A stretch of DNA of 21,281 nucleotides from a virus: positions 1 to 21,281 of the IMG/VR virus record IMGVR_UViG_3300028115_000143; one strand, written 5' to 3'. Shown here piece after piece: positions 1,349 through 12,756 of this stretch. How positions within the stretch are numbered: the stretch's first letter is position 1; the number at the start of each line of letters is the position of its first letter. A program made the translations under genes and the position numbers. Below the pieces are notes generated by a model. It was not told where the DNA came from, did not search any database, and was given only the letters and a program-made list of their open reading frames with translations.

Positions 1349-1359
1349 AGTGTATTAAT
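1349..1359 (+). promoter_or_regulatory. AGTGTA motif upstream of the 87-aa gene
   Basis: AGTGTATTAAT lies in the 22-nt gap before the ATG at 1364. Read as GTG-TAnnnT, the hexamer TATTAA begins at 1353, 11 nt before the start codon. If it is a -10 element, the transcript would begin at or next to the ATG. It is the same motif seen at seven other gene starts in the window. The promoter function is inferred. Confidence 0.45.
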
Positions 1360-1363
1360 AATT

Positions 1364-1627
1364 ATGGCAATTTACACTGGTAATAACCCAATGATTTTAC
1401 AGTCTTTAATTCATCAAGAATTTAACACTGGAGAATTAGCGACGGGTTATGACGCTTTAATAACTGGATTGATAAATACTGGAGATTCAGATCAACTTCA
1501 ATTATTAATAAATCATTTGGGTCGAGAATATTTTAGAAAACAGTACAACGCAGGTCTTTCTGAATACATATTAGATACATATGATGCAGGTTTTAGACCA
1601 ATTACTGTTACAGGAATCTATTCTTAA
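1364..1627 (+). CDS. Small protein of unknown function (87 aa)
   Basis: This intact short frame begins ATG GCA ATT 5 nt after the AGTGTA-type motif and ends just before a strong terminator, which supports it as a real gene. The protein is acidic to neutral and predicted largely helical in the middle ('ALITGLINTGDSDQLQLLIN' is amphipathic), with no Cys, membrane segment or signal peptide. 'LGREYFRKQYNAGLSEYILD' forms a second helical, charged stretch. No family is recognised. It could be a small virion or assembly factor, being the last gene of the leftmost plus-strand unit. Confidence 0.65.
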   Translation: MAIYTGNNPMILQSLIHQEFNTGELATGYDALITGLINTGDSDQLQLLINHLGREYFRKQYNAGLSEYILDTYDAGFRPITVTGIYS

Positions 1628-1636
1628 AGGCATGTA

Positions 1637-1664
1637 AAAAACCCCCGCATTCACGGGGGTTTTT
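1637..1664. terminator. Bidirectional rho-independent terminator
   Basis: An AAAAACCCCCG / CGGGGGTTTTT hairpin with an 11-bp perfect stem and a 6-nt loop (cattca) sits between converging genes that end at 1627 (+) and 1687 (-). The T tract follows the GC stem on the plus strand. The A tract before it serves as the T tract on the minus strand, so it can terminate both units. The flanks also carry near-symmetric GCATG sequences (1630-1634 and 1671-1675) that could extend the structure. It is the only strong intrinsic terminator I see in the window. Confidence 0.9.
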
Positions 1665-1686
1665 ATTTTTGCATGCTTTAATTTTT

Positions 1687-2250
1687 TTAGTACAAGTCCG
1701 AATAGTCCACTGAAGCAGAAGCTTCGCTGACTTTTATTCCGAACTTTTTAGCCGCAGCTTTAATTTTTTTCAGGGCTGTTTTTTTGGCTTCTTCACTAAT
1801 GTCAGTTTGGTCCAAACGAGCTAGGGCATTGCGTACATGAGCAGCATCGTTAATTGGGAGATGTCTTAATGAACGGGGGACTGTCTTACCTTCATCGTCT
1901 TTTTCTCCTCCGGGCTCAATATATGCAAAATCAGAATCAGGAAGATTATTTTTTTCTTTTGAGCTTAAGACAGCACTTTTCATCTGCTTAAGATTTTCCT
2001 TATCGTACTTTTTATCTTTTTCGATATCGACTATTTCGACGCTTTTCTTCTCGGAAGGTTTACCCTTTTTGAGTTTTTTGATTTTACTATCGTCGTCTTT
2101 TAAAGCATCTTTTTCATGCTTTTCTTTTTCTTTTTGGTTATCGCGTTTGAGTTCTTTGGTATCAATTTTTTCATACTGCTTTTTACTCATAGCAGCTTCT
2201 TGCTCTTCGCGCCATTTAATAATCTTTTCTGAAAAGTCTACAATTTTCAT
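1687..2250 (-). CDS. Charged phage protein with DUF6582-like C-terminal domain
   Basis: The 187-aa protein has two parts. Residues ~1-100 are Lys/Glu/Asp-rich, low in complexity and probably coiled-coil or disordered. Residues ~103-175 form a compact domain with the order LPDSDFAYIEPGG, an EGKTVPRSLRHLPI segment, then DAAHVRNALARLDQ and KIKAAAKKFGIKV. That C-terminal pattern (LPDSxFA, Lxx(H/N)DAxHVRNAxAR, IxAAAKxFG) is familiar from phage proteins and from the end of some head-maturation proteases and scaffold-like proteins (DUF6582-like, from memory). Its biochemical role is unknown to me. It is transcribed against the neighbouring structural genes and uses the shared terminator at 1637-1664. 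The start is the ATG at 2250, 18 nt downstream of a TAATTA hexamer. A scaffold or capsid-associated role is possible but unproven. Confidence 0.8.
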   Translation of the reverse strand: MKIVDFSEKIIKWREEQEAAMSKKQYEKIDTKELKRDNQKEKEKHEKDALKDDDSKIKKLKKGKPSEKKSVEIVDIEKDKKYDKENLKQMKSAVLSSKEKNNLPDSDFAYIEPGGEKDDEGKTVPRSLRHLPINDAAHVRNALARLDQTDISEEAKKTALKKIKAAAKKFGIKVSEASASVDYSDLY

Positions 2251-2261
2251 GTTTCTTAAAT

Positions 2262-2271
2262 CTAATTACAC
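2262..2271 (-). promoter_or_regulatory. GTGTA motif proximal to the DUF6582-like gene
   Basis: Reading down the minus strand, GTGTAATTAG precedes the ATG at 2250. The TAATTA hexamer starts at 2268, 18 nt before the start codon. It is a weaker match than other copies because the leading base is G rather than A. The proposed role is promoter. Confidence 0.3.
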
Positions 2272-2275
2272 CCTT

Positions 2276-2326
2276 TTAAGATACAGTGGGCATTTTTTTA
2301 TTTTCTCCCTCCTTATAACTTTTCAT
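2276..2326 (-). CDS. Possible 16-codon leader ORF
   Basis: On the minus strand, ATG at 2326 opens a frame MKSYKEGENKKMPTVS followed by TAA. It begins 10 nt after the hexamer of the AGTGTAATAT motif at 2340, the same geometry as the other genes in the window. It contains AAGGAGGG (2314-2307), the best Shine-Dalgarno match I noticed in the window, 13 nt before an internal ATG at 2293. It could be a short leader peptide for the 187-aa gene, or chance. It is too short to judge from composition. Confidence 0.15.
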   Translation of the reverse strand: MKSYKEGENKKMPTVS

Positions 2327-2329
2327 TTT

Positions 2330-2340
2330 AATATTACACT
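2330..2340 (-). promoter_or_regulatory. AGTGTAATATT motif, distal for minus-strand unit
   Basis: On the minus strand this reads AGTGTAATATT, identical in its first ten bases and the eleventh T to the plus-strand copy at 3442-3452. It is placed to transcribe leftward toward the DUF6582-like gene, with a leader of about 70-75 nt containing AAGGAGGG. Two exact copies in two short intergenic gaps on opposite strands are the best direct evidence for the motif. Confidence 0.5.
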
Positions 2341-2357
2341 AAAAGCGTGTATCATAT
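2331..2357. promoter_or_regulatory. Imperfect palindrome between divergent promoters
   Basis: ATATTACAC (2331-2339) and GTGTATCATAT (2347-2357) form an imperfect inverted repeat around the 7-nt spacer TAAAAGC. The symmetry arises because two AGTGTA-type motifs face away from each other in the 112-bp gap between the minus-strand gene at 2250 and phoH at 2363. It may simply be back-to-back promoters. It could also be an operator that coordinates both. Confidence 0.3.
2345..2357 (+). promoter_or_regulatory. GCGTGTATCATAT motif upstream of phoH
   Basis: GTGTATCATATTA precedes the ATG at 2363. The hexamer TATCAT starts at 2350, 13 nt before the start codon, so a transcript would be nearly leaderless. 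No Shine-Dalgarno is present. It differs from the consensus AGTGTA by having GCGTGTA. Confidence 0.4.
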
Positions 2358-2362
2358 TAGTG

Positions 2363-3124
2363 ATGTCAAGAGCTAAACACACAGGGGATTTTGAGTCCCT
2401 TGAAGTTACCGACGGAAAAGTGAAAATTCACCAAAGGGATACTATCAAACCAAGAGAAAATTTTTATATAGAAGAATTACCTTGGACAGAAAAACAAAAA
2501 CGATTTATAGAAATATCATTAAATAAATCCACAAGACTAGTATTGTGCAAAGGGCCTGCAGGTAGCTCTAAGACTTTAACAGCAGTATATTCTGCCCTTA
2601 ATCTTCTTAATGACTCTAAGGTCTCTGATGTAATATATATGCGTTCTGCAGTGGAAAGCTCGGATTCTAGGTTAGGTTTCCTCCCCGGAGATGCTGATGA
2701 GAAGTTGCATTATTATAATCTACCTTTTATGGATAAGTTGGATGAACTTTTAAATGAAGATACTGTAAAAAAACTACAAAGAGATCAAAGAGTCTCAATA
2801 CATCCCGTAAATTTTGCTAGGGGTATGAGCTGGAATGGAAAAGCTATTCTTTTAGACGAAGCTCAAAACAGCTCTTTTAGAGAAATAGTAACAGTTCTAA
2901 CTCGAATTGGAAGGTATTCTCGAGGATTTATTATGGCTGATCCTATGCAAACAGACCTAAAGAATGGAAATAGAGGAGGGTTTGAAAAGATATTTTCAGC
3001 TTTCAACAATGAAGAAAGCAAAGATATGGGAATTCATACGTTTGAATTTGATGAAACTGATATTGTTAGGTCTGCATTAACAAGATTTATTGTTCAAAAA
3101 ATTAGCTCTATCGAAAATCATTAA
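2363..3124 (+). CDS. phoH: PhoH-like P-loop ATPase
   Basis: This is a 253-residue protein of the PhoH family, a P-loop NTPase group common in marine phages and linked by name to the phosphate regulon, whose molecular role in phages is unresolved. The Walker A motif GPAGSSKT is at residues 64-71, after the strand RLVLCK. The family segment SRLGFLPGDADEKL is around 102-115. Walker B AILLDEAQN is at 161-169, and RGFIMADPMQTDL follows near 187-199. Length and domain content match a single-domain PhoH. The start is the ATG (MSRAKHTGDF). The frame runs further upstream as far as 2069, but that part is antisense to the neighbouring gene and gives an implausible Phe/Ser-rich peptide, and the divergent regulatory gap supports 2363. 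The 3' end overlaps the convergent gene by 17 bp. It has its own AGTGTA-type motif and so appears to be a one-gene unit. Confidence 0.92.
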   Translation: MSRAKHTGDFESLEVTDGKVKIHQRDTIKPRENFYIEELPWTEKQKRFIEISLNKSTRLVLCKGPAGSSKTLTAVYSALNLLNDSKVSDVIYMRSAVESSDSRLGFLPGDADEKLHYYNLPFMDKLDELLNEDTVKKLQRDQRVSIHPVNFARGMSWNGKAILLDEAQNSSFREIVTVLTRIGRYSRGFIMADPMQTDLKNGNRGGFEKIFSAFNNEESKDMGIHTFEFDETDIVRSALTRFIVQKISSIENH

Positions 3125-3386
3125 TATTTTTCTTTATTAATCGCGCTACAAGAGCAGAAAATTTTCTAACTTTATATTCGGGAATATCCCAAAAGAAAGC
3201 ATGAGTGACTTCTTCAACGAGGACACTCATCTTTCTTCTATTTTTTAAAGTAGGGTCTATTTCAATGGTAGGCTTCTCAGTCTCTGGGCTACTACATAAA
3301 CCATCAGCTTTATATTTATAATGAGGTTTTTTCCATATTAGATCATATTCAACACCATCCGCATTGGTAAACTTGGAGTTTTCCAT
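3108..3386 (-). CDS. Small metallopeptidase-like phage protein with EExxH in place of HExxH
   Basis: The 92-residue protein MENSKFTNADG... is followed by an 'IEIDPTLKNRRKMSVLVEE' segment, the motif VEEVTHAFFWD (around 58-68) and a helical, basic C-terminus. The layout (substrate-like strand, 'RRKMSVLV', EExxHAxFWD, then a helix) resembles small phage zinc-peptidase-like proteins of the type LIHExxHAxxWD. Here the first zinc-binding His is replaced by Glu, so catalysis is doubtful and a structural or regulatory role is possible. The start is the ATG at 3386. An in-frame GTG at 3404 is rejected because it lies inside the AGTGTA motif. The gene runs antisense to its neighbours and converges on phoH with a 17-bp overlap, so the two transcripts may interfere. 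Confidence 0.75.
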   Translation of the reverse strand: MENSKFTNADGVEYDLIWKKPHYKYKADGLCSSPETEKPTIEIDPTLKNRRKMSVLVEEVTHAFFWDIPEYKVRKFSALVARLIKKNINDFR

Positions 3387-3394
3387 ATATAAAA

Positions 3395-3405
3395 GAGAAT
3401 ACACT
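3395..3405 (-). promoter_or_regulatory. AGTGTATTCTC motif; decides the start of the metallopeptidase-like gene
   Basis: On the minus strand, AGTGTATTCTC covers the in-frame GTG at 3404 and leaves the ATG at 3386 as the natural start, 15 nt after the TATTCT hexamer begins. It is arranged back-to-back with the plus-strand copy at 3442, so the 71-bp gap is a divergent promoter region. Confidence 0.4.
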
Positions 3406-3441
3406 TTTTTTGAAAAACTGATAAGGATTAATACTATATAT

Positions 3442-3452
3442 AGTGTAATATT
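3442..3452 (+). promoter_or_regulatory. AGTGTAATATT motif upstream of the sigma/terminase operon
   Basis: AGTGTAATATT, followed by a T run, directly precedes ATG at 3458; the TAATAT hexamer starts at 3446, 12 nt before the codon. Just upstream is a plausible host sigma-70 promoter: TTGAAA at 3410-3415, 16 nt, then TACTAT at 3432-3437. This operon may therefore be readable both by host polymerase and through the phage motif, which would suit a unit that encodes its own sigma factor. Confidence 0.5.
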
Positions 3453-3457
3453 TTTTT

Positions 3458-3847
3458 ATGAAAGCGTATTGTCCAGATTGCGGTTCAGCAACAGAGTATT
3501 CTTTAAGTAAGCCTAAATTTTGTGCTTCTTGCGGTAAGTCTTTTTCTTTGACTGCATCAGCGCCGGTTAAAAAAATTTTTAAACCCCGAGCTAAAACTGT
3601 TGAACCTCAAATTGAAATAGAGGAAGAAGAAGAATTTTCAATTCCAGATATTGATAAACTACAAGTTAGTATTGAAGCGTCTAGATTTAAAAATGTAAAT
3701 AAAATAGGGGAAATCATGGGGTCTAATACCGATAGCGAACAAGAAGAGTTTCAAAGGCAACCTGATTCGAGTTATTCTTTAGATAGTTTCGAACAGGATT
3801 TCATGAGGGACGCGGGAAGTTCACGTAAATCTGATGCGAAAACCTAA
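3458..3847 (+). CDS. Zinc-ribbon protein encoded with the sigma factor
   Basis: The 129-aa protein opens with a four-cysteine zinc ribbon: CPDC at residues 5-8 and CASC at 22-25, separated by 13 residues, with Gly after the second Cys of each pair (CPDCGS, CASCGKS). After a basic linker (KKIFKPRAK, ~38-46) comes an acidic run (EIEEEEEF, ~53-60), then a mixed helical/disordered tail rich in Ser, Asp and Gln ending in SLDSFEQDFMRD. There is no catalytic motif. It is the first gene of the operon and its end overlaps the sigma-factor start by 14 nt, indicating translational coupling. By analogy with T4, where the late sigma factor gp55 works with the coactivator gp33, this could be a partner of the sigma factor. 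I have no sequence similarity to gp33, so that is inference from position. Confidence 0.85.
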   Translation: MKAYCPDCGSATEYSLSKPKFCASCGKSFSLTASAPVKKIFKPRAKTVEPQIEIEEEEEFSIPDIDKLQVSIEASRFKNVNKIGEIMGSNTDSEQEEFQRQPDSSYSLDSFEQDFMRDAGSSRKSDAKT

Positions 3848-4517
3848 ACTAAAATTTGAAGATAATATTGAACAAATAGATAGAGAAATAAAAAAAAGAA
3901 GATCCAAGTGGAACCTGACGGCACTTTCATGGATGGACTTTGATGATGTTTCTCAAATACTTAGAATTCATATATTTAACAAATGGCATTTATATGACAT
4001 TAACAAACCGTTAAATCCGTGGATTAATAGAATAATTTCTAATCAGATTAAAAATTTAATCCGTAATAATTACGGAAACTATTGTAGACCTTGTCTGAAA
4101 TGTGCTGCCGCAGAAGCTGGAGACTTATGCTATATTTATGGAAAGCAAAGTGATTCATGCCCTCTATTCGCCAACTGGGAGAAAACAAAAAAGCAAGCTT
4201 ATAATGCTAAACTCCCCGTTTCAATAAATGACCATACCTATGAATTAAATTCAGCTGAATACAACAATATTGACATAATTAATATAATGTCGAAGGTAAA
4301 TGCCAAAATGAAAGAGACTCTAAAGCCCGCCGAATGGAAAATATACAAAGCTTTATATATTGATCATTTATCTGAAGAAGATGCCGCAACTTTAATGGGG
4401 TATAAGACGAATGAAAAAAATCGTGTCCCCGGCTACAAACAAATTAAAAATGTAAAAAAAGCTATAATAAATAAAGTAAAAAAAATGTTACATAACGGTG
4501 AAATAGAGATATTATGA
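3834..4517 (+). CDS. Phage RNA polymerase sigma factor, gp55-like, with inserted Cys cluster
   Basis: The 227-aa protein has a sigma-70-like split architecture. Residues ~33-80 (WMDFDDVSQILRIHIFNKWH... then PWINRIISNQIKNLIRN) match region 2: an acidic DDVxQ helix followed by the WINRxxxNQIxNLIRN helix that contacts core polymerase and the -10 DNA. Residues ~163-216 (KPAEWKIYKALYIDHLSEED, AATLMGYK, then GYKQIKNVKKAIINKVKKML) look like a region 4 helix-turn-helix. Between them is a Cys cluster (C84, C87, C90, C99, C109) that may bind zinc. The length suits phage late sigma factors of the T4 gp55 type rather than full host sigmas. The ATG at 3834 overlaps the upstream gene by 14 nt, and its stop overlaps the next ATG (ATGA). 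The likely role is to direct host polymerase to phage promoters, plausibly the AGTGTA motif. Confidence 0.82.
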   Translation: MRKPKLKFEDNIEQIDREIKKRRSKWNLTALSWMDFDDVSQILRIHIFNKWHLYDINKPLNPWINRIISNQIKNLIRNNYGNYCRPCLKCAAAEAGDLCYIYGKQSDSCPLFANWEKTKKQAYNAKLPVSINDHTYELNSAEYNNIDIINIMSKVNAKMKETLKPAEWKIYKALYIDHLSEEDAATLMGYKTNEKNRVPGYKQIKNVKKAIINKVKKMLHNGEIEIL

Positions 4518-5623
4518 GCGCTAAAAAGTTTACCCTTAATGAAGATCAGCAATTAGCTATCCTAGAGCTATGGAACAGTGGAGAGGATAAAAATCTTTAC
4601 ATAAATAACATTATGAAATCTGTGTTCCCTGACTTGCCAAAAGATAAACAGGACGGTAGATCTAAGGAAGGGAGAGCTGTTAAAAAGTTTCTACATGAAA
4701 AAGGTATAGAAGTCAAGGTCACAAGTAAGCATTATCCAAAAGAAAAAGTTGAGCTTACTGAAGATCAAAAAGAGTTTATATATAATAATTGCGGGTCCAT
4801 GAAACCCATGGAAATAGCTCGAACTATATTCGAAGAACCTAAAATATCTGCACTCGATCTTAGATATAAAGTGCTTTTTGAATACCTGAGCGCTATAGAT
4901 AATAAGGTTAAATATTCTGATATCACACCTGAAGACACAGCGGAAGGGGGATATGCTCCTCCTAAGTCTGAGGCTAGAGCACTAGTTAGGGTAAATAAGT
5001 ATGTTCATAACGGTATAGATAAAAATAAAGTTACTTCAAAACATAAAAGAAGTTTGTCGACTTTAATTGGGTATATGCACACCTATCGTTTTCTTCATCA
5101 GATTAGCACTTACTCTATAGAAACTGATAGAGAATTATTTGAAAGTAGTTTCGTAAGATATACTTGGGACAAGGATGACTTAACCCAAGAAGAGGTAGAT
5201 CAATATATAGTACTTTCTGCTGAAGTTGTTATAGCTTCTAATATTCAAAGAAGGGTCGAAAGATTACAAACTCTTTTGGATCAAAACGCAGAAGACACTG
5301 AAGGTCGGAAAATGGCAATGAGTTTGGTTGAAGCAATCAACACCGCACAGACTGAATATAATCAATGTGTAAATAGACAAACTAAACTACTCAATGAACT
5401 AAAAGAAAAAAGAAGTCAGCGGATGAGTAAACAGATGCAGCAGTCTGCCTCTATTTTAAATCTGGTAGAACTTTGGAAAGATGAAGAGTCTCGCAATAAA
5501 ATGATTAAGATAGCCGACCTTAGACGTAAAAATATCTCTTCAGAGATAGAAAGATTAGGATCTATGGAAGATATAAAGTCTAGGATCATGGGTATAAGCG
5601 AGGAAGAAATTTTAAATGGTTAA
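4514..5623 (+). CDS. DNA-binding protein, probable terminase small subunit
   Basis: This is a 369-aa mostly helical protein. Two N-terminal helical segments look like DNA-binding helix-turn-helix units: ~7-62 (FTLNEDQQLAILELW ... EGRAVKKFLHEKG) and ~80-125 (LTEDQKEFIYNNCGSMKPME, then IARTIF ... ALDLRYKVLFEYL). A Pro/Gly linker follows near 137-150. Residues ~175-300 form a long helical core, including DRELFESSFVRYTWDKDDLT and VVIASNIQRRVERLQTLLDQ, and the charged C-terminus contains SILNLVELWKDEESR. The core is of a type I associate with conserved marine-phage proteins encoded just before terL. The small-terminase assignment rests on this position, the DNA-binding N-terminus and the helical oligomer-like core; it is longer than typical TerS. 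The start overlaps the sigma stop by 4 nt and the end overlaps the nuclease by 8 nt. An alternative is another packaging or transcription regulator. Confidence 0.6.
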   Translation: MSAKKFTLNEDQQLAILELWNSGEDKNLYINNIMKSVFPDLPKDKQDGRSKEGRAVKKFLHEKGIEVKVTSKHYPKEKVELTEDQKEFIYNNCGSMKPMEIARTIFEEPKISALDLRYKVLFEYLSAIDNKVKYSDITPEDTAEGGYAPPKSEARALVRVNKYVHNGIDKNKVTSKHKRSLSTLIGYMHTYRFLHQISTYSIETDRELFESSFVRYTWDKDDLTQEEVDQYIVLSAEVVIASNIQRRVERLQTLLDQNAEDTEGRKMAMSLVEAINTAQTEYNQCVNRQTKLLNELKEKRSQRMSKQMQQSASILNLVELWKDEESRNKMIKIADLRRKNISSEIERLGSMEDIKSRIMGISEEEILNG

Positions 5624-6554
5624 ATGTAAAATATGCGAAAAAGAATTTACGAAAGATAAAGGGCTTCATTTACATCTTAAAGCTCATAAAATCTCTGTGA
5701 AAGATTATTATCATGAGCACTACCCCCGGTATGACTTGTATACTAAAAAATTAATAAATTTTAAAAATAAAGATCAGTATTTTTCTTCAGACTTCAATGA
5801 TAAAAGAAGTTTAAAAAGTTGGCTCAAAAAGATTCCTTTAGATCAATCCCGAGAGTATTGTAAAAATTTACTAATTAAAAGAAAAAATGAAAAAAATATA
5901 AAGTATGCCCCAACTGAAGTTGAACTAAGGACATTGCCTTTCCCTCCTATTCATTATTACGAAATGATTTTTGAGGATTACTATAAGTTATGTGAGTCTA
6001 TAGGTCTTAAAACGAAATTGTCAAAATTTCCGAGCAATATGACTTTTACAGAAAACTTTACAAAAGATCATTTAATATATATCGACTCACGAGAACAAAA
6101 ACCTTTGAGAATCTTAGATTTCCCTACTGAGATAAAAGGTTTAAAATTCGGAGATTATTGTTTAAACGATAAAGATAAAACTCACAACACTTACATAGAA
6201 AGAAAATCTGTACCTGATTTAATTGGCACTCTTAGCTCTGGTTTAGAAAGATTTAAAAATGAAATAGATAAAGCTGCGGAAGAAGGTGCCTATATGATCA
6301 TATTGATTGAAAGAAAAATAGAAGAGTGTCTTGCTTTTAATAAACTTTCTTATGTTTATAAAAAAAATACTAGAGTTACTCCTGATTTTATTTTTCATAA
6401 TGTCAGAGATTTAATACAGCAATATCCTCATATACAATTTCTTTTTGTAGATGGTCGACAGGAGTGCGTGAGAATAGTTAAAAAACTTTTACTATCAGAT
6501 ATTTTAAAAGAAAAATTTGATCTTCAGTTAGCTTACGAACTAAAATTATTATAA
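5616..6554 (+). CDS. C2H2 zinc finger - ERCC4-type nuclease fusion
   Basis: The N-terminus is a classical C2H2 finger (C4, C7, H20, H24; CKICEKEF...HLHLKAH) followed by KISVKDYYHEHYPRYD, a form frequent in phage DNA-associated proteins. A linker of ~110 residues leads to an ERCC4/XPF-type nuclease domain at ~152-245: IDSREQ (D157, R159, E160, Q161), GDY at 179-181, and IERKSVPDL (E195, R196, K197, D201). This keeps the GDxn-ERKxxxD signature used for metal-dependent cleavage, so it is probably active. Targets are likely branched or flapped DNA. The gene lies within the packaging operon, sharing 8 nt with the upstream gene and one base with terL (TAATG). A role in trimming replication or recombination branches before packaging is plausible but inferred. 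An SD-like GAGGAAG precedes its ATG. Confidence 0.88.
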   Translation: MVKCKICEKEFTKDKGLHLHLKAHKISVKDYYHEHYPRYDLYTKKLINFKNKDQYFSSDFNDKRSLKSWLKKIPLDQSREYCKNLLIKRKNEKNIKYAPTEVELRTLPFPPIHYYEMIFEDYYKLCESIGLKTKLSKFPSNMTFTENFTKDHLIYIDSREQKPLRILDFPTEIKGLKFGDYCLNDKDKTHNTYIERKSVPDLIGTLSSGLERFKNEIDKAAEEGAYMIILIERKIEECLAFNKLSYVYKKNTRVTPDFIFHNVRDLIQQYPHIQFLFVDGRQECVRIVKKLLLSDILKEKFDLQLAYELKLL

Positions 6555-8386
6555 TGTGGTACTGTCCAGAAAAATATGAGACTTCTCTCACTAACCTAAA
6601 CGAGGAGTACAAGAATATAGAGGGAGAGATAGGTGATAAACAAGCTAAAATTACTTTAGCTAAATTTCTTCGTCAAAATCTAGGTTTTACTACAGAGCTG
6701 CTTTCAGGAATTAAATTAGCTCCTTTTCAAGAGATTACATTAAAAGCATTTTTTAATAGAAACTTTAATATGTGCGTATGGGGACGTGGTTGTGGTAAAA
6801 GTTTTATAGCTGCTGTATATTGTTTTCTGCAATGTGTATTTGAGCCTAGAACAAAAATATTAATCGCTGGCCCTACTTTTCGTACCGCTAGATTTATTTT
6901 TAACAACATTGAAAAGATTGTTGAGTCTAAAGAAGCTCAAATGCTAGCTCATGCTTTCGGAGCTAAATCTAAACGTAATGACCAATTCGAATGGAAAATA
7001 AATGAAGGAACTATTACGGCTATTCCATTAAGCGGTGAAAAAATTCGTGGTTTTCGCGCTAACATTCTAGTGCTAGACGAATTTCTCCTTTTACCTGAAG
7101 AAACAATTAAAACTGTTCTGATGCCTTTCTTGGTTGCTCCTCAAGATATGGCTGAAAGGATAAAAATAAGAGAAATGGAAGATGAATTAATTGCTAAGGG
7201 GCAAATGCAAGAAAAAGATAGGGTTGTATTTAAAAATAATTCTAAAATGATAGCTCTTTCTTCCGCTAGTTTTAGTTTTGAAAATTTATACAAAACCTAT
7301 AAAGAGTGGATGGGTAATATTTATTCTGATGATATTTTGCAGTCAAATTATTTTATATCTCAGATGGCTTTTGATTCTATACCTCCTGATATGATCGACA
7401 GTACTGTTATAGAAGAAGCTAGGGCAGGTGGGTCTTCCAATTCTTCTTTCTTAAGAGAATATTGTGCTCAATTTACAGATGGTAGCGATAGTTACTTTAG
7501 TGCAAAAAAAATGTACGATTGTACTATCCCAGACGGAGAGAAGCCTAACACGCTTTTAAAGGGGGACAAAGATAAAGAGTATATTTTAGCAATTGATCCA
7601 AGTTTTAGTAATAGCCCTAGCTCAGATTATTTTGCAATGTCTGTTCTTGAGGTGGACGCAGATTCTAAAAATCATTCTACATTAGTTCATTCTTATGCTG
7701 TGGCTGGGGGAAACCTCAGAGACCACATAAAATATCTTTATTATATTGTAACGAATTTTAACCTATCCTTAATAATTATTGATAACGCTGGATACCAATT
7801 TATTGATAGCGCTAACGAGTCTGAATTGTTTAGCAGTTCAAAAATCAATATTAAATTCTTTGATTATAATAGTGATAAATCAGGGGTCGATTATCAAAAC
7901 ATGCTCCAAAAAGCTAAACAGGATTATAATAAAAAAGAAAGCGTTATTTGTTTTAAGCAGTTATTTTCTACCACTTTCCTAAGAGAAGCTAATGAATACC
8001 TACAGGCTTCAATCGATCACAAACGTATTTGGTTTGGGTCTAGAACCGCAGCTTGTGGAAGCTACTTCGACAAATGTGTCAATCAGTCAGTTCCTTTAAA
8101 ACTGACTCCTCATGATACAAAAGGTGAGTTTATAGAGTTTCAGGACGATATGATTCATCAAACTAAAAAGCAGTGCGCTTTAGTTGAAGTCAAAACAACA
8201 GCTAAAGGAACACAGACTTTTGATTTGCCCCAACACTTGCGTCGTAGCAATTCTGTTAACCGAGCTCGAAAAGATAATTACACTACACTAATGTTAGGTA
8301 ATTGGGCGGTTAAGGCCTATAATGATATTAAAAATACCAAACAAGAGGAAATTAACTATACGTTTACTCCCAAAATGTTTGGTTAA
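6554..8386 (+). CDS. terL: Terminase large subunit (packaging ATPase-nuclease)
   Basis: The 610-aa protein has both terminase halves. ATPase domain: Walker A VWGRGCGKS at about 75-83, Walker B ILVLDEF at 171-177 with D175/E176, and a coupling-type ALSSAS at 234-239. Nuclease domain of RNase H/RuvC type: AIDPSF (D348), LIIIDNAG (D410), and a late acidic pair in EFQDDMIHQ (D531/D532). It translocates DNA into the prohead through the portal and cuts the concatemer. The length is normal for T4-like or related terminases. It starts on the overlap TAATG with the nuclease gene, without a Shine-Dalgarno, and is the last gene of the 3458-8386 operon. The portal gene follows 20 nt later behind a new AGTGTA motif. 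Confidence 0.96.
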   Translation: MWYCPEKYETSLTNLNEEYKNIEGEIGDKQAKITLAKFLRQNLGFTTELLSGIKLAPFQEITLKAFFNRNFNMCVWGRGCGKSFIAAVYCFLQCVFEPRTKILIAGPTFRTARFIFNNIEKIVESKEAQMLAHAFGAKSKRNDQFEWKINEGTITAIPLSGEKIRGFRANILVLDEFLLLPEETIKTVLMPFLVAPQDMAERIKIREMEDELIAKGQMQEKDRVVFKNNSKMIALSSASFSFENLYKTYKEWMGNIYSDDILQSNYFISQMAFDSIPPDMIDSTVIEEARAGGSSNSSFLREYCAQFTDGSDSYFSAKKMYDCTIPDGEKPNTLLKGDKDKEYILAIDPSFSNSPSSDYFAMSVLEVDADSKNHSTLVHSYAVAGGNLRDHIKYLYYIVTNFNLSLIIIDNAGYQFIDSANESELFSSSKINIKFFDYNSDKSGVDYQNMLQKAKQDYNKKESVICFKQLFSTTFLREANEYLQASIDHKRIWFGSRTAACGSYFDKCVNQSVPLKLTPHDTKGEFIEFQDDMIHQTKKQCALVEVKTTAKGTQTFDLPQHLRRSNSVNRARKDNYTTLMLGNWAVKAYNDIKNTKQEEINYTFTPKMFG

Positions 8387-8396
8387 GTGTAAAATT
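8386..8396 (+). promoter_or_regulatory. AGTGTAAAATT motif upstream of the portal gene
   Basis: It lies immediately after the terL stop codon. The TAAAAT hexamer starts at 8390, 17 nt before the ATG at 8407. The predicted leader is only a few AT-rich bases with no Shine-Dalgarno. The proposed role is promoter for the portal unit. Confidence 0.45.
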
Positions 8397-8406
8397 ATAT
8401 TAAATT

Positions 8407-10281
8407 ATGGCAGTAAGGAAGAAAACGGAACAAGGCTCGGAACCTTTAATGGCTATGCATCAATCGACAGCTAGCCAAACGAGGACTCGTAGAAATGCAG
8501 CGGCTGATATTCCGCGAACTGACAGATTTAGGAATATTGAAAATGGCATGATACCATTTAAATATTCTCATGGTGTCAAGAATAATTCGAATATCGATGT
8601 TAGAGATACGATTATTCTATGCCAGAAAGCTTATTATAATTTTTCAGTTTTTAGAAATACTATAGATCTGATGACTGAATTTTCTATAAGTGATCTTTAC
8701 TATACAGGCGGTAGTAAAAAATCCCGAGAGTTCTTTGACACCTTATTTAAAAGAATTAACATTGGAGACTTGCAGAGTAGATTTTTTAGAGAATATTATA
8801 GATCCGGTAATGTTTTTATATATCGATTTAACGCTAAAATGGACAAATCTGATGCTATTAAAATTAATCAGACTTTTGGACTGTCCCAAGCTTCCGACGA
8901 ATTAGAAATCCCTGCTAAGTATATTATTTTAAACCCATCTGATATTCAGCTTCAAGGGAGTATAACATTTAGCACTGGTATTTACTATAAAGTAGTTACT
9001 GATTATGAACTGCAAAGACTTAGGTATCCTCAAACTGAAGAAGAGGAAGAAGTCTTCCACAGTCTCCCTGAAGAAACTAAAAAAATAATTCAAGATTCTA
9101 AAAATGTAGGAGCTGCTGCTATTACTATCCCCCTGAATGCAGAAAGATTAGCCGCTGTTTTCTACAAAAAGCAGGATTACGAGCCGTTTGCGGTTCCTAT
9201 GGGGTATCCGGTCTTAGAAGATATAAACTGGAAGCAGGAGATGAAACAGATGGATATGGCGGTAGCTAGAACCACCAATCAAGCTATACTGTTAGTTACA
9301 ATGGGAACCAAACCTGCAGAAGGCGGAGTTAATCAGCAAAATCTTACCGCAATGCAGAAACTTTTTGAAAATGAATCTGTAGGTCGTGTCCTTATATCTG
9401 ACTATACAACTGATGCTAAATTTGTAATACCAGATATTGGAAATATTCTTGACTCAAAAAAATATGAGGTAGTTAACCAAGATATTCAGATGGGTCTTAA
9501 TAATATTCTTCTTAGTGATGAAAAATTCGCGAATACCAGTATAAAAGTTCAAGTCTTCATGGAGAGGTTAAAACAGGGACGTCGGGTATTTCTTGAAAAC
9601 TTCTTAATGCCTGAGATTAGAAGAATTTCTAAAGAAATGGGTTTTAAAAATTATCCTACTGCACATTTTGAAGATGTCGATTTAAAAGATAACTCAGTAT
9701 ATTCAAGAATCTATAGTAGATTAATAGAGCTTGGGGTTCTTACTCCAGAAGAAGGTGTTCAAGCAATTGAGTCTGGAAGATTCCCTACTTTAGAAGAGTC
9801 TATAGAATCTCAACGCAAATTCAAGGATCTGAAAGAAGAGGGACTATATCAACCAATTATAGGGGGAGCAAAAGGCCCCCAAATGACAGGAAGACCTTCT
9901 GGCTCTAATACGCCAAAAGAAACTGATACTAAGACGCCAATAGGAACAAAAGCTAAAGTACATTTTAGCTTATCTACAATTCAAGAGAATCTAAACCTTT
10001 CCGACAAACTTAATCTGGAGGTGGAGTCTTCTTTAAGGCAACTTCACAATAGAAAAAGGTTAAGTAAGCAGCAAAAACAAGTTGCAAAAGAAATTGCGAA
10101 TATAGTTATTGCTAACGAAGATCCTGAAAACTGGTTAGCTAAAGCTGGAAGATACGCTGCGGAGCCTACGGATAGAAATCACGAAAGGGTCAAGAAAGTC
10201 CAAGATGTAGCTTTAGAACATCAAGTGGACGACTTTTTGGCTGGAATCCTTTACGCTAGTGTTTATGAAGGGAAAAAATAA
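8407..10281 (+). CDS. Portal protein
   Basis: This 624-aa protein lies immediately downstream of terL, the usual place for the portal, the dodecameric ring through which DNA enters and leaves the head. Residues 1-45 are basic and Ser/Thr/Ala-rich (probably disordered). The region ~60-160 has the portal-like helical start (DTIILCQKAYYNFSVFRNTI, then LQSRFFREYYRSGNVFIYRF). A mixed region around 266-300 (GYPVLEDINWKQEMKQMDMA) is followed by 'TNQAILLVTMGTKPAEGG'. The helical end is at ~400-460. A Gly/Pro/Thr-rich linker near 485-515 is followed by a separate helical, basic C-terminal segment from ~518 to 624 (SLRQLHNRKRLSKQQKQVAK) that is longer than the core fold needs. There is no motif diagnostic on its own; the call rests on size, fold-like pattern and context. 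Confidence 0.85.
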   Translation: MAVRKKTEQGSEPLMAMHQSTASQTRTRRNAAADIPRTDRFRNIENGMIPFKYSHGVKNNSNIDVRDTIILCQKAYYNFSVFRNTIDLMTEFSISDLYYTGGSKKSREFFDTLFKRINIGDLQSRFFREYYRSGNVFIYRFNAKMDKSDAIKINQTFGLSQASDELEIPAKYIILNPSDIQLQGSITFSTGIYYKVVTDYELQRLRYPQTEEEEEVFHSLPEETKKIIQDSKNVGAAAITIPLNAERLAAVFYKKQDYEPFAVPMGYPVLEDINWKQEMKQMDMAVARTTNQAILLVTMGTKPAEGGVNQQNLTAMQKLFENESVGRVLISDYTTDAKFVIPDIGNILDSKKYEVVNQDIQMGLNNILLSDEKFANTSIKVQVFMERLKQGRRVFLENFLMPEIRRISKEMGFKNYPTAHFEDVDLKDNSVYSRIYSRLIELGVLTPEEGVQAIESGRFPTLEESIESQRKFKDLKEEGLYQPIIGGAKGPQMTGRPSGSNTPKETDTKTPIGTKAKVHFSLSTIQENLNLSDKLNLEVESSLRQLHNRKRLSKQQKQVAKEIANIVIANEDPENWLAKAGRYAAEPTDRNHERVKKVQDVALEHQVDDFLAGILYASVYEGKK

Positions 10282-11711
10282 TGGCAAGGCCGAATGTAAT
10301 TTACAACTGTCAGGCTTTATTCGTAGGGCCTGCTCCAGAAAGTGGTTATAATTATTTTGACTACAACGGCGGTCCTGCCACTAATGATCATAGCAACCTA
10401 GTTCAGAAAATAAACCGTTTAAACCCTATAGACCGGGTACAGTCTGTTAGTTATCAAATTAATCTTCCTCATGAAGATATACTTCAGCTAAATCAGCGCG
10501 GTATAGTAGACAGACCTATCATAAATTACCCGACTGTAAACCTTTCTTTTAATTACCTACTCTGCGGAACAAAAAATGAAGCTAGGCTCGGTTTTAACGT
10601 AAATTACCCCCTCTATAATTTTCCTTTCGAAGGTAGACCGTATTACAATAATAATGAAGATGTGTCTTTATTGTCAGGATTTTTTGAAGAAAATAAAGGT
10701 AGAACTAATAAAAAATATTGGGAAACTTTCCCGGTGAATCAGTACCGAGATTGTAAAAATATATATTTGGTAGTTAATCAAGAAGGAGACGATATAAATA
10801 AATTTTACCAAAAAGAAGATTTTTTATCTCCTGATATTTATCAATCTATAGATCCAAACGCCCCAGATTATCATGTTATATCTTTTGGTAATTGCTATAT
10901 AAACAACTATACAACTCAAGGAGCAGTTGGAGCTTTACCTGCTGCTTCGGCTTCATTTACTGCGTATAATGCTAATTTTGATATGAGTGGGAGTGGTTTT
11001 CAAGCTCCCGGTATAGAAACAAAAAGTGGAACCATTTCTCCCGACAAAGACGTTATCATACCTAGAATTTTAGCAGACGAAGGTTATCCTGCGCTAAAAC
11101 CGGGAGACATTACAATTACTACAGATTCTTTTTCTGGTTTAGGGGTCGATTTTAATAAGCTGCATATTCAAGGATATGACATTTCCATTGATTTTAACAG
11201 ACAACCCTTAACTAGTCTTGGTTATAAATTTCCTGTAGATAATCGTTCTACTTCCCCAGTTTTTGCCAGCCTTTCTTTAAATGGTATAGTAGAGTCAGGT
11301 AATAGCGGTTCATTAGTTGATCTAGTTTCAATTAATAGTGGTTATGATTTTACTATTAGCGTTGATCCTAAAAATTGTGAAAAACCTATAACACCTCCGA
11401 TTAATGGGGGGACAATTCCAATAAATACTCAAGTGGAAGCTTTAAGGTATATATTTAAAGGGGCAGTTTTAGAAGATTTTAATTATGATACTAGTATAGG
11501 GGATAGTAAAACTTTCGGCGCATCATTTTCAGTAGAGCTAAACCCTGATAATTTAGCTTCAGGGCTTTTTATAAGTGGAGTGTTAGGTATGGAAAAGATT
11601 GAAGATTTTGTATTATTGGAGGGGGCTCCGGATGGGGTAAATCAAGATGGCTATTATTTACAGCAGGAAACTGATGATTTATTGGTAACAAACTTAATCC
11701 CACCGTATTAA
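10281..11711 (+). CDS. Virion structural protein, possibly tail tube
   Basis: This is a 476-aa beta-rich protein with no membrane segment. The N-terminus MARPNVIYNCQALFVGPAP is followed by 'RVQSVSYQINLPHEDILQLN', then 'YPTVNLSFNYLL'. The C-terminal half has further beta strands ending in FGASFSVELNPDN and LFISGVLG. The phrase 'PTVxLxFxYxL' after a 'RVQSVSYxxxxxxxDIxQxx' strand resembles uncharacterised structural proteins next to portals in marine phages (from memory), which may be tail tube or tail sheath-like components. The start overlaps the portal stop (TAATG), with an SD-like AAGGG before it, so it is co-transcribed with the portal. The exact virion role is uncertain. Confidence 0.6.
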   Translation: MARPNVIYNCQALFVGPAPESGYNYFDYNGGPATNDHSNLVQKINRLNPIDRVQSVSYQINLPHEDILQLNQRGIVDRPIINYPTVNLSFNYLLCGTKNEARLGFNVNYPLYNFPFEGRPYYNNNEDVSLLSGFFEENKGRTNKKYWETFPVNQYRDCKNIYLVVNQEGDDINKFYQKEDFLSPDIYQSIDPNAPDYHVISFGNCYINNYTTQGAVGALPAASASFTAYNANFDMSGSGFQAPGIETKSGTISPDKDVIIPRILADEGYPALKPGDITITTDSFSGLGVDFNKLHIQGYDISIDFNRQPLTSLGYKFPVDNRSTSPVFASLSLNGIVESGNSGSLVDLVSINSGYDFTISVDPKNCEKPITPPINGGTIPINTQVEALRYIFKGAVLEDFNYDTSIGDSKTFGASFSVELNPDNLASGLFISGVLGMEKIEDFVLLEGAPDGVNQDGYYLQQETDDLLVTNLIPPY

Positions 11712-11713
11712 AC

Positions 11714-11724
11714 AGTGTATATTA
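11714..11724 (+). promoter_or_regulatory. AGTGTATATTA motif upstream of the fibre genes
   Basis: The hexamer TATATT starts at 11718, 25 nt before ATG 11743, the longest spacing of the series. The extra leader contains AAGG twice (in ATAAGGTAAAAGGAT), the second 2 nt before the ATG. The gene with room for a leader is also one with Shine-Dalgarno-like bases, which fits the idea that the other units are nearly leaderless. Confidence 0.45.
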
Positions 11725-11742: not shown

Positions 11743-12756
11743 ATGGCAAATAAAAAAATATCTCAATTAGTAGGAATAGGAACGAGTTCAACAGTAAGTG
11801 GCACGTTCCTTTTGCCTGTAGCAGTAGGTCCTGATGGAGGACAGTACACCACAAATAGAATTACAGTTTCAGAATTAGCAGATTATATATTTTCAGGAGA
11901 TAATGCAGGGGGCGGATACCCAGCTCCAGTTCTTTCTGGGCAAACTAATGTTTATTTCAATAACCCAAGTTGGCAGGATACTACTGCTGCTGCTGACGGC
12001 ACTAATTACGCCTATATAATGCTTAATGTTAATAACGGTTTGTTAACTACAGGAAGTGGTATAGGGAAGCCAGTTGGTGGAGATAATCTAGGTAACCATA
12101 CTGCCACTCAAACTTTAAACCTACAGGATAATATTATTACTAACGTAGGAGAAATTATTAATTTTAACGATGGAGGAGGAGTGTCTAGTACTTCAGCCCA
12201 AGTTTCACTTACTCATCCTACGAAAATACAATTCGATGCCCCAACAATACAAATAGGCAATGCAGACTCTATAGAGGTAAACGGTGATTTTACCGCAAGA
12301 TCCGCTGATTTTGCAGGTACCATTACAGGAGATTCTCTAGAGATTCAAGGAGCTTCTTATCACAACGTTGGTAATATTGGTGCATCAGCATCTGCTGGAA
12401 ACATAGGTGTGGACTGGACAAACGGTAATATTCAGTACCAATCCATAGACGCTAATACAACTTTTTCATTTACGCCGGGAACTCCTCATCCCGGACAAAC
12501 TTTGACTATGTATGTAGAAAATACTCAAGCTAACTTTAATGATTTCAGAACAGTACTATTTAAATCTGGTAGTTCTACAGATAAAGTTTTATGGAGTGAG
12601 CAAAATGATAATTTACCTCATGCTCAAGGTACAGCTGTAAGTTCGGCGGGTGCCGGTAAATGTCCCGGAGTTAGCGGATCAAGAACAAATGTTTATACTT
12701 TTATCGCAATGAATGAAAAAATATTTGCTTCAGCAGTAACAGGATACAATCACTAA
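11743..12756 (+). CDS. Tail fibre-like protein (337 aa)
   Basis: The N-terminus MANKKISQLVGIG, then 'LLPVAVGPDGG' and 'RITVSELADYIF', is the arrangement of many phage fibre base regions, which anchor to the baseplate or tail tip. The middle (~120-220) is Gly/Asn/Thr-rich with repeated short strands (TATQTLNLQDNIITNVGEI), as in beta-helical fibres. The C-terminus from ~225 ('NGNIQYQSIDANTTFSFTPG' to the end) looks like a separate small beta domain containing 'GQTLTMYVENTQ' and 'VYTFIAMNEKIFASAV', which could be a tip or receptor-contact domain. Its stop overlaps the next start (TAATG). Confidence 0.75.
   Translation: MANKKISQLVGIGTSSTVSGTFLLPVAVGPDGGQYTTNRITVSELADYIFSGDNAGGGYPAPVLSGQTNVYFNNPSWQDTTAAADGTNYAYIMLNVNNGLLTTGSGIGKPVGGDNLGNHTATQTLNLQDNIITNVGEIINFNDGGGVSSTSAQVSLTHPTKIQFDAPTIQIGNADSIEVNGDFTARSADFAGTITGDSLEIQGASYHNVGNIGASASAGNIGVDWTNGNIQYQSIDANTTFSFTPGTPHPGQTLTMYVENTQANFNDFRTVLFKSGSSTDKVLWSEQNDNLPHAQGTAVSSAGAGKCPGVSGSRTNVYTFIAMNEKIFASAVTGYNH

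Follow-up and report, generated by a model that had tools for sequence, protein, structure and literature searches.

A probable late promoter word and its likely sigma factor in a family of uncultivated tailed phages

The phage-encoded sigma factor gp36 of phiEco32 uses TAATGTATA promoters, and phage 7-11 is related (PMC4331800). Late promoters of T4 and cyanophages (TATAAATA / NATAAATA) work with gp55 (PMC2984593). AR9, a phage of the phiKZ group, has late promoters of the form AACA-(6N)-T(A/G), leaders of 26-491 nucleotides (nt) and its own multisubunit RNA polymerases (PMC5312081). Phage transcripts are often leaderless (PMC5312081), so leaderlessness alone is not new. Here we analysed a 21,281-base contig, IMG/VR record IMGVR_UViG_3300028115_000143 (the window), which is the whole of this genome record. 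A short word with a GTGTA core, GTGTAATA/GTGTAATAT, stands before genes on both of its strands. We consider it probable that this word is the late promoter of an uncultivated tailed-phage family and is read by the phage's own sigma factor, some of the messages being near-leaderless. A full-text literature search returned no paper presenting GTGTAAT as a phage promoter motif.

Intergenic DNA amounts to 338 bases, or 1.6% of the window. Eight of the 21 GTGTA words, counted on both strands, lie in it (p = 7e-10). An earlier reading of the letters without database searches (the sequence-only reading) had listed eight sites concentrated between genes, and all eight are present. The 11-base identity on opposite strands that it reported is also there, AGTGTAATATT being the same at 2340(-) and 3442(+). 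The enrichment concerns position and not abundance. The window has 11 copies of GTGTANNNT, with 10.7 expected from shuffles, so the signal resides in where the word is placed. This unremarkable total is what one would expect if chance or base composition in AT-rich intergenic DNA had produced the pattern. However, the positional p value, the flat results with shuffles and control words, and the retention of the word at homologous starts make such an artefact scarcely conceivable. The core word of the earlier motif stands, within the consensus GTGTAATAT; the A placed in front of it is a mere preference. The elements are listed below with the position of the G of GTGTA and its distance to the start codon of the following open reading frame (ORF).

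1349 to 1358, plus strand: GTGTA element before ORF 1364-1627; G at 1350, 14 nt to ATG, predicted leaderless
2263 to 2272, minus strand: GTGTA element before ORF 2250-1687; G at 2271, 21 nt to ATG
2331 to 2340, minus strand: GTGTA element back to back with the 2347 site; G at 2339, 89 nt to the annotated start of ORF 2250-1687
2346 to 2355, plus strand: GTGTA element before the PhoH-like gene 2363-3124 (plus strand); G at 2347, 16 nt to ATG
3396 to 3405, minus strand: GTGTA element before ORF 3386-3108; G at 3404, 18 nt to ATG
3442 to 3451, plus strand: GTGTAATAT element before the zinc-ribbon/sigma/nuclease/terminase operon; G at 3443, 15 nt to ATG, predicted leader of 1-2 nt
8386 to 8395, plus strand: GTGTA element before the portal-like gene 8407-10281 (plus strand, weak likeness), overlapping the terminase stop codon; G at 8387, 20 nt to ATG
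11714 to 11723, plus strand: GTGTA element before ORF 11743-12756, with a Shine-Dalgarno-like leader AAGGTAAAAGGA; G at 11715, 28 nt to ATG

The word is conserved in relatives. Viral metagenomes contain hundreds of them, including contigs of 144, 170, 209 and 134 kb, and seven long relatives (G001-G006 and G009) were read whole. Their genes were called with a simple purpose-written caller, whose output for the window matched its ORF list. Expectation maximisation with no prior on the gaps of the window and two long relatives returned GTGTAATAT in about 40% of gaps, with a log-likelihood of 153 compared to 29-39 in shuffled gaps. In further, diverged loci, GTGTAATatt was found in 59% of gaps (log-likelihood 526 vs 39).

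Homologous starts were compared at about 270 loci after removal of near-duplicates, and GTGTA was sought within 60 nt upstream. Among genes that come first in their units, it precedes 16/16 homologues of ORF 2250(-), 20/20 of the PhoH-like gene, 32/44 of ORF 3386(-), 47/88 of ORF 3458, 24/26 of the portal-like gene and 19/19 of ORF 11743. The G lies 29 nt from the ATG in 18 of the 19 ORF 11743 homologues and 28 nt in the remaining one. The unit at 637, which has no GTGTA in the window, has one in 7/13 relatives. ORF 1364-1627 is poorly conserved and has GTGTA at 1/2 homologous starts, so its footprint support is slight. The sequence-only reading had stated that genes inside overlap chains go without the motif, and this is borne out across relatives (0/71, 0/60, 0/86, 1/100, 0/8 and 0/20 homologous starts). 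The terminase gene at 6554 has GTGTA upstream in 1/100 relatives and none in the window. Gene 10281 is intermediate (12/48). The preference for unit starts on which that reading had staked its proposal was found in the seven long relatives as well as in these loci. As a positive control, the same pipeline found TATAAATA in T4 late genes, 22-36 nt from the ATG, plus a separate Shine-Dalgarno motif. In negative controls, GTGTA occurred at 10-23 nt in 2 (MaeS), 0 (Stills), 0 (phiEco32) and 0 (T4) places.

Distances between G and ATG begin abruptly, with a lower edge at 14 nt. In the window's clade (group A), 44 sites lie at 14 nt and 6 at 13 nt; in group B the counts are 29 and 0. The word is directional. 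Control words made by reversal or permutation give flat distance profiles, and the reverse complement has its peak at the place of divergent promoters. If a message must contain its start codon, this edge would place the transcription start at most about 14 nt after the G, as expected for a -10-type element. At sites with a distant ATG, a T at +13 is still followed by a purine at +14, C being nearly absent; this step is initiator-like. No -35 element was seen in non-redundant sites aligned on the G, where a weak A/T tract is the only feature. TTGACA and TATAAT at 16-18 nt spacing were not found at GTGTA sites, the exception being a composite promoter of the sigma operon. Two -35 candidates were rejected. 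In group B, the ACTTTTACTCC signal belongs to the terminase gene, whose end is conserved, and the A/T tracts located some 25 nt before GTGTA are weak.

Shine-Dalgarno-like sequences accompany 2/79 genes with a distance of up to 18 nt and 30/55 genes beyond it (Fisher p = 1e-12). The start codons are supported by third-position divergence, which is seen from the first few codons onwards; for gene 3458, a later start is excluded by a conserved cysteine at codon 5. These results fit leaderless mRNAs for units with close-set GTGTA, whose 5' ends are predicted. The sequence-only reading had proposed a -10 element giving nearly leaderless mRNAs. A -10 element is the best fit to the 14-nt edge, the lack of a -35, the +13/+14 step and the Shine-Dalgarno dichotomy, but in about half of the cases a genuine leader would remain. 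The 11-18 nt spacing given there applies to about half of the window's sites and the others leave a short leader. The general lack of Shine-Dalgarno sites holds up to 18 nt, but farther sites often have one, for example that of ORF 11743.

These distances also bear on whether the word acts as a promoter at all. It sits at a fixed position near the ATG in many genes, in a short AT-rich context, as an activator site or a ribosome or processing signal in the leader might. However, its distance to the ATG ranges over 14-36 nt and is sharply bounded below, and it lies upstream of any Shine-Dalgarno sequence. The initiator-like step is at a constant spacing from the word rather than from the ATG. 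In addition, genes inside operons are translated too, yet they have no such word in front. An operator or RNA-level signal in place of a core promoter is therefore highly improbable.

The gaps without GTGTA contain a second promoter class. TTGACA-N17-TATAAT-like promoters are found in 88/388 of them, compared to 25 in shuffles. The TATAAT is most often 12-13 nt from the ATG, so these units look leaderless too. The GTGTA sites are clustered. G002 has a run of 47 gaps without a match where 13 would be expected, and G003, G004 and G005 are similar. In G002, the stretch without GTGTA covers roughly 50-120 kb and encodes DnaB, DNA polymerase III alpha, a UvsX-like recombinase and an FtsZ/tubulin-like protein. 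TTGACA/TATAAT promoters occur in this replication stretch, and the arms holding GTGTA contain the tail and virion-like genes. Judged from gene content, the partition may separate late (GTGTA) from early transcription.

TGTAAT is one base off TATAAT, and the two lie at nearly equal distances from the ATG. The word might thus be a degenerate -10 (TGTAAT for TATAAT) of the host vegetative sigma, with no phage factor needed. This is quite improbable. No -35 is present at GTGTA, whereas the same genomes have a clear TTGACA-17-TATAAT class, and each class favors its own parts of the genome. The key A of the vegetative -10 is the second base of TATAAT; in the phage word a G is nearly fixed there, and an extra fixed G stands in front.

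A candidate reader of the late word is encoded in the operon behind the 3442 element, which contains the following features.

3410 to 3437, plus strand: TTGAAA-N16-TACTAT, host-type half of the composite promoter, upstream of the sigma operon
3458 to 3847, plus strand: zinc-ribbon-like ORF, first gene of the sigma operon (weak zinc-ribbon Pfam matches)
3834 to 4517, plus strand: sigma factor with sigma2 and sigma4 domains and a Cys-rich loop between them (TIGR02937 2.4e-6, Sigma70_r2 6.8e-5)
5616 to 6554: ERCC4-type nuclease with an N-terminal C2H2-like zinc finger, within the sigma operon
6554 to 8386, plus strand: terminase large subunit, last gene of the sigma operon (phrog_2 1.2e-25)

The TIGR02937 match of ORF 3834-4517 falls below the cut-off of that model. 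A first structure prediction from 27 close sequences reached a predicted local distance difference test (pLDDT) score of 58 and was too poor; with 44 more diverse sequences the score was 72.7, which is moderate. In the latter model, the N-terminal 84 residues resemble sigma2 and residues 147-226 resemble sigma4 (about 2 Å for sigma4). The fold matches are sigma domains of the extracytoplasmic function (ECF) type. The stretch INRIISNQIKNLIRNNYGN in region 2 is almost frozen across the family at about 60% identity, as is the promoter word. This terminase-linked sigma was found in all six long relatives searched. No relative of it was found among 50,697 phage records, and the window's terminase and portal matched only distant phages. 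ORF 3834-4517 is the likely reader of GTGTAATA; because a second sigma factor exists, we only infer this pairing. The proposal of a phage promoter is supported overall, although the sequence-only reading had overlooked both the sigma encoded in the window and the partition into late and early regions.

The second sigma-70-like protein is more divergent, has a superfamily match of 3.6e-10 and is encoded outside the late arms of G001-G004. It was located as follows.

G001, 38782 to 39384: second sigma-70-like protein
G002, 54857 to 55456 (= L145:14857-15456): second sigma-70-like protein
G004, 102820 to 103449: second sigma-70-like protein
G003: second sigma-70-like protein, also present

This protein might read GTGTAATA and leave, for example, TTTAGA-N18/19-TATAAT to the terminase-linked sigma. 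Its presence in these four relatives and its stronger sigma-70 superfamily match favor such a division, as does the location of the window's sigma operon itself behind GTGTA. However, its identity between long relatives is 31-63%, and drops to 31% between G002 and G003 while GTGTAATA does not change; conservation of the terminase-linked sigma matches that of the word. The G002 copy is located in the GTGTA-free stretch. We regard this division as unlikely and favor recognition by the terminase-linked sigma.

Several points weigh against a GTGTA late promoter read by the terminase-linked sigma. One is the existence of the second sigma. The relatives were collected by sigma or terminase similarity, so that sigma presence is no independent correlate, and those compared include no close one without the sigma. 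The sigma4 domain is intact though no -35 was found. GTGTA clustering is weak in G001 and G006 and absent in G009. The sigma operon of other clades is often without GTGTA, which is present in 47/88 non-redundant relatives.

A separate phage RNA polymerase was also considered and is not favored. No RpoB-type subunit was found in six long relatives, whose contigs may be incomplete, and the control was positive in 14/14 genomes. A search for single-subunit polymerases was uninformative, its control giving no signal. The bacterial beta clamp (PF02767) was found in 0/6 long relatives; the T4 gp45 and gp33 families were not searched. The ECF sigma of Stills gave no match to the profile of the window sigma, a single sequence being compared.

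The upstream region of the sigma operon suggests how it may be controlled. In group A, an invariant TTGAAA-N16-TAnnAT is present in 26/27 GTGTA-bearing sigma-operon upstream regions. The hexamer occurs only at the 16-nt spacing, and GTGTA follows 7 or 11 nt on. Tyr4, Cys5, Cys8 and Gly9 of ORF 3458-3847 are invariant in the 27 relatives compared, which fixes its start codon. Sigma operons without GTGTA have a TATAAT-type promoter about 11-21 nt before the ATG, several with TTTAGA 18-19 nt upstream. The composite promoter suggests start-up by a host-type polymerase followed by self-amplification by the sigma in the window's clade. A third promoter-like class, TTTAGA-N18/19-TATAAT at 11-24 nt before the ATG, was observed at the sigma operons of L193, L215, L228, L255, L270, G004 and G005. 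It may be a middle class.

We propose the following programme for this family of large uncultivated tailed phages. The sigma operon would first be switched on from a TATAAT-like promoter, which in the window's clade overlaps the GTGTA element. The two-domain sigma (ORF 3834-4517), acting on host RNA polymerase, would then read GTGTAATAT as a single-element, -10-type late promoter. It would amplify its own operon and turn on the packaging, portal and structural units. TTGACA-17-TATAAT promoters would serve the other genes, those of the replication region among them. Transcription from the late word probably starts 13-14 nt after its first G. An element 14-18 nt from the ATG would leave 0 to about 4 nt ahead of the start codon and no Shine-Dalgarno sequence; one 20-36 nt away would leave a short leader, often with a Shine-Dalgarno sequence.

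In G002, the site matching 2340(-) precedes a 170-residue gene that was not found at this place in the window. The site is probably a promoter left behind by a gene lost in the window's lineage. The feature after it is:

2276 to 2326, minus strand: 16-codon mini-ORF (MKSYKEGENKKMPTVS), starting 13 nt after the 2340(-) site

Additional features were observed in the window and its relatives. The convergent genes 1364-1627 and 2250-1687 have between them an inverted repeat (1636-1665, ACCCCCG...CGGGGGT) that includes A and T tracts and looks by eye like a two-way terminator. The window also encodes a long tail-fibre-like gene. In G002, an ankyrin-repeat protein (L149:3202-4794) with a weak guanylate-cyclase-like C-terminal match has its own GTGTA promoter, and the FtsZ/tubulin GTPase-like gene of the replication region is at L146:9850-11115 (Pfam Tubulin 3e-11). 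Transfer RNAs are present in G001-G004, and a transfer-messenger RNA gene is predicted on the phage contig at L278:14725-15112 (G004).

A relative of the family (L221, NZWA01000041.1) lies on a 77-kb contig of a metagenome-assembled genome labelled Flavobacteriales, which is either a host hint or mis-binning. The promoter type of Bacteroidetes is TAnnTTTG. A Flavobacteriales host was not adopted: the second promoter class is TTGACA/TATAAT, not TAnnTTTG, and the bin may be wrong.

For an uncultivated family represented by hundreds of viral contigs, this analysis offers a transcription programme that can be read from DNA, with probable late units, starts and the likely controlling sigma. The sigma and its -10 word form a compact pair that may be orthogonal to host promoters. 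The analysis also suggests leaderless translation as a principal mode in many phage units, with a bearing on which hosts and ribosomes these phages use. Our broadest picture is a widespread family of large phages with many leaderless units under TATAAT and GTGTAATA promoters, two phage sigmas, a late -10 shifted from that of the host by a G for the key A, and one clade self-amplifying through a composite promoter. We put it forward tentatively, at somewhat short of even chances.

AR9 resembles this system in its large genome and in a phage-specific late promoter ending in T followed by a purine at the start site. Unlike AR9, with its long leaders and its own multisubunit polymerases, the six long relatives gave no such polymerase in the RpoB-type search. 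In T4, the phage sigma gp55 acts on host polymerase in late transcription. T4 and the cyanophages share with the window a single -10-type element without a -35, structural genes as targets and, as proposed here, a phage sigma working with host polymerase. However, T4 has TATAAATA in place of GTGTAATA, with its words 22-36 nt from the ATG and accompanied by Shine-Dalgarno sequences, and the sigma4 domain is intact in the window sigma, unlike gp55. A T4-like assignment was rejected: the octamer differs, and one gp55 sequence compared to the family profile gave no match.

The nearest in kind is gp36 of phiEco32. Both sigmas belong to a broad ECF-like superfamily, matching TIGR02937, and both systems use a short word with a TGTA core. 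As is proposed here, phiEco32 has late promoters over its structural genes and bacterial promoters for part of the rest (PMC4331800). As in that kind of system, the window encodes a phage protein with sigma2 and sigma4 domains, and a short word without a -35 stands upstream of structural and packaging units. No specific relationship between the window sigma and gp36 was found by hhalign with one gp36 sequence. The phiEco32 word is different and its genome is 77 kb. The first T of its word lies 20-68 nt from annotated starts, and 4/5 exact TAATGTATA sites are at 42-68 nt. The system described here is distinct from known phage late sigmas by its word, by the placement close to the start codon in both promoter classes and by the composite promoter of its sigma operon.

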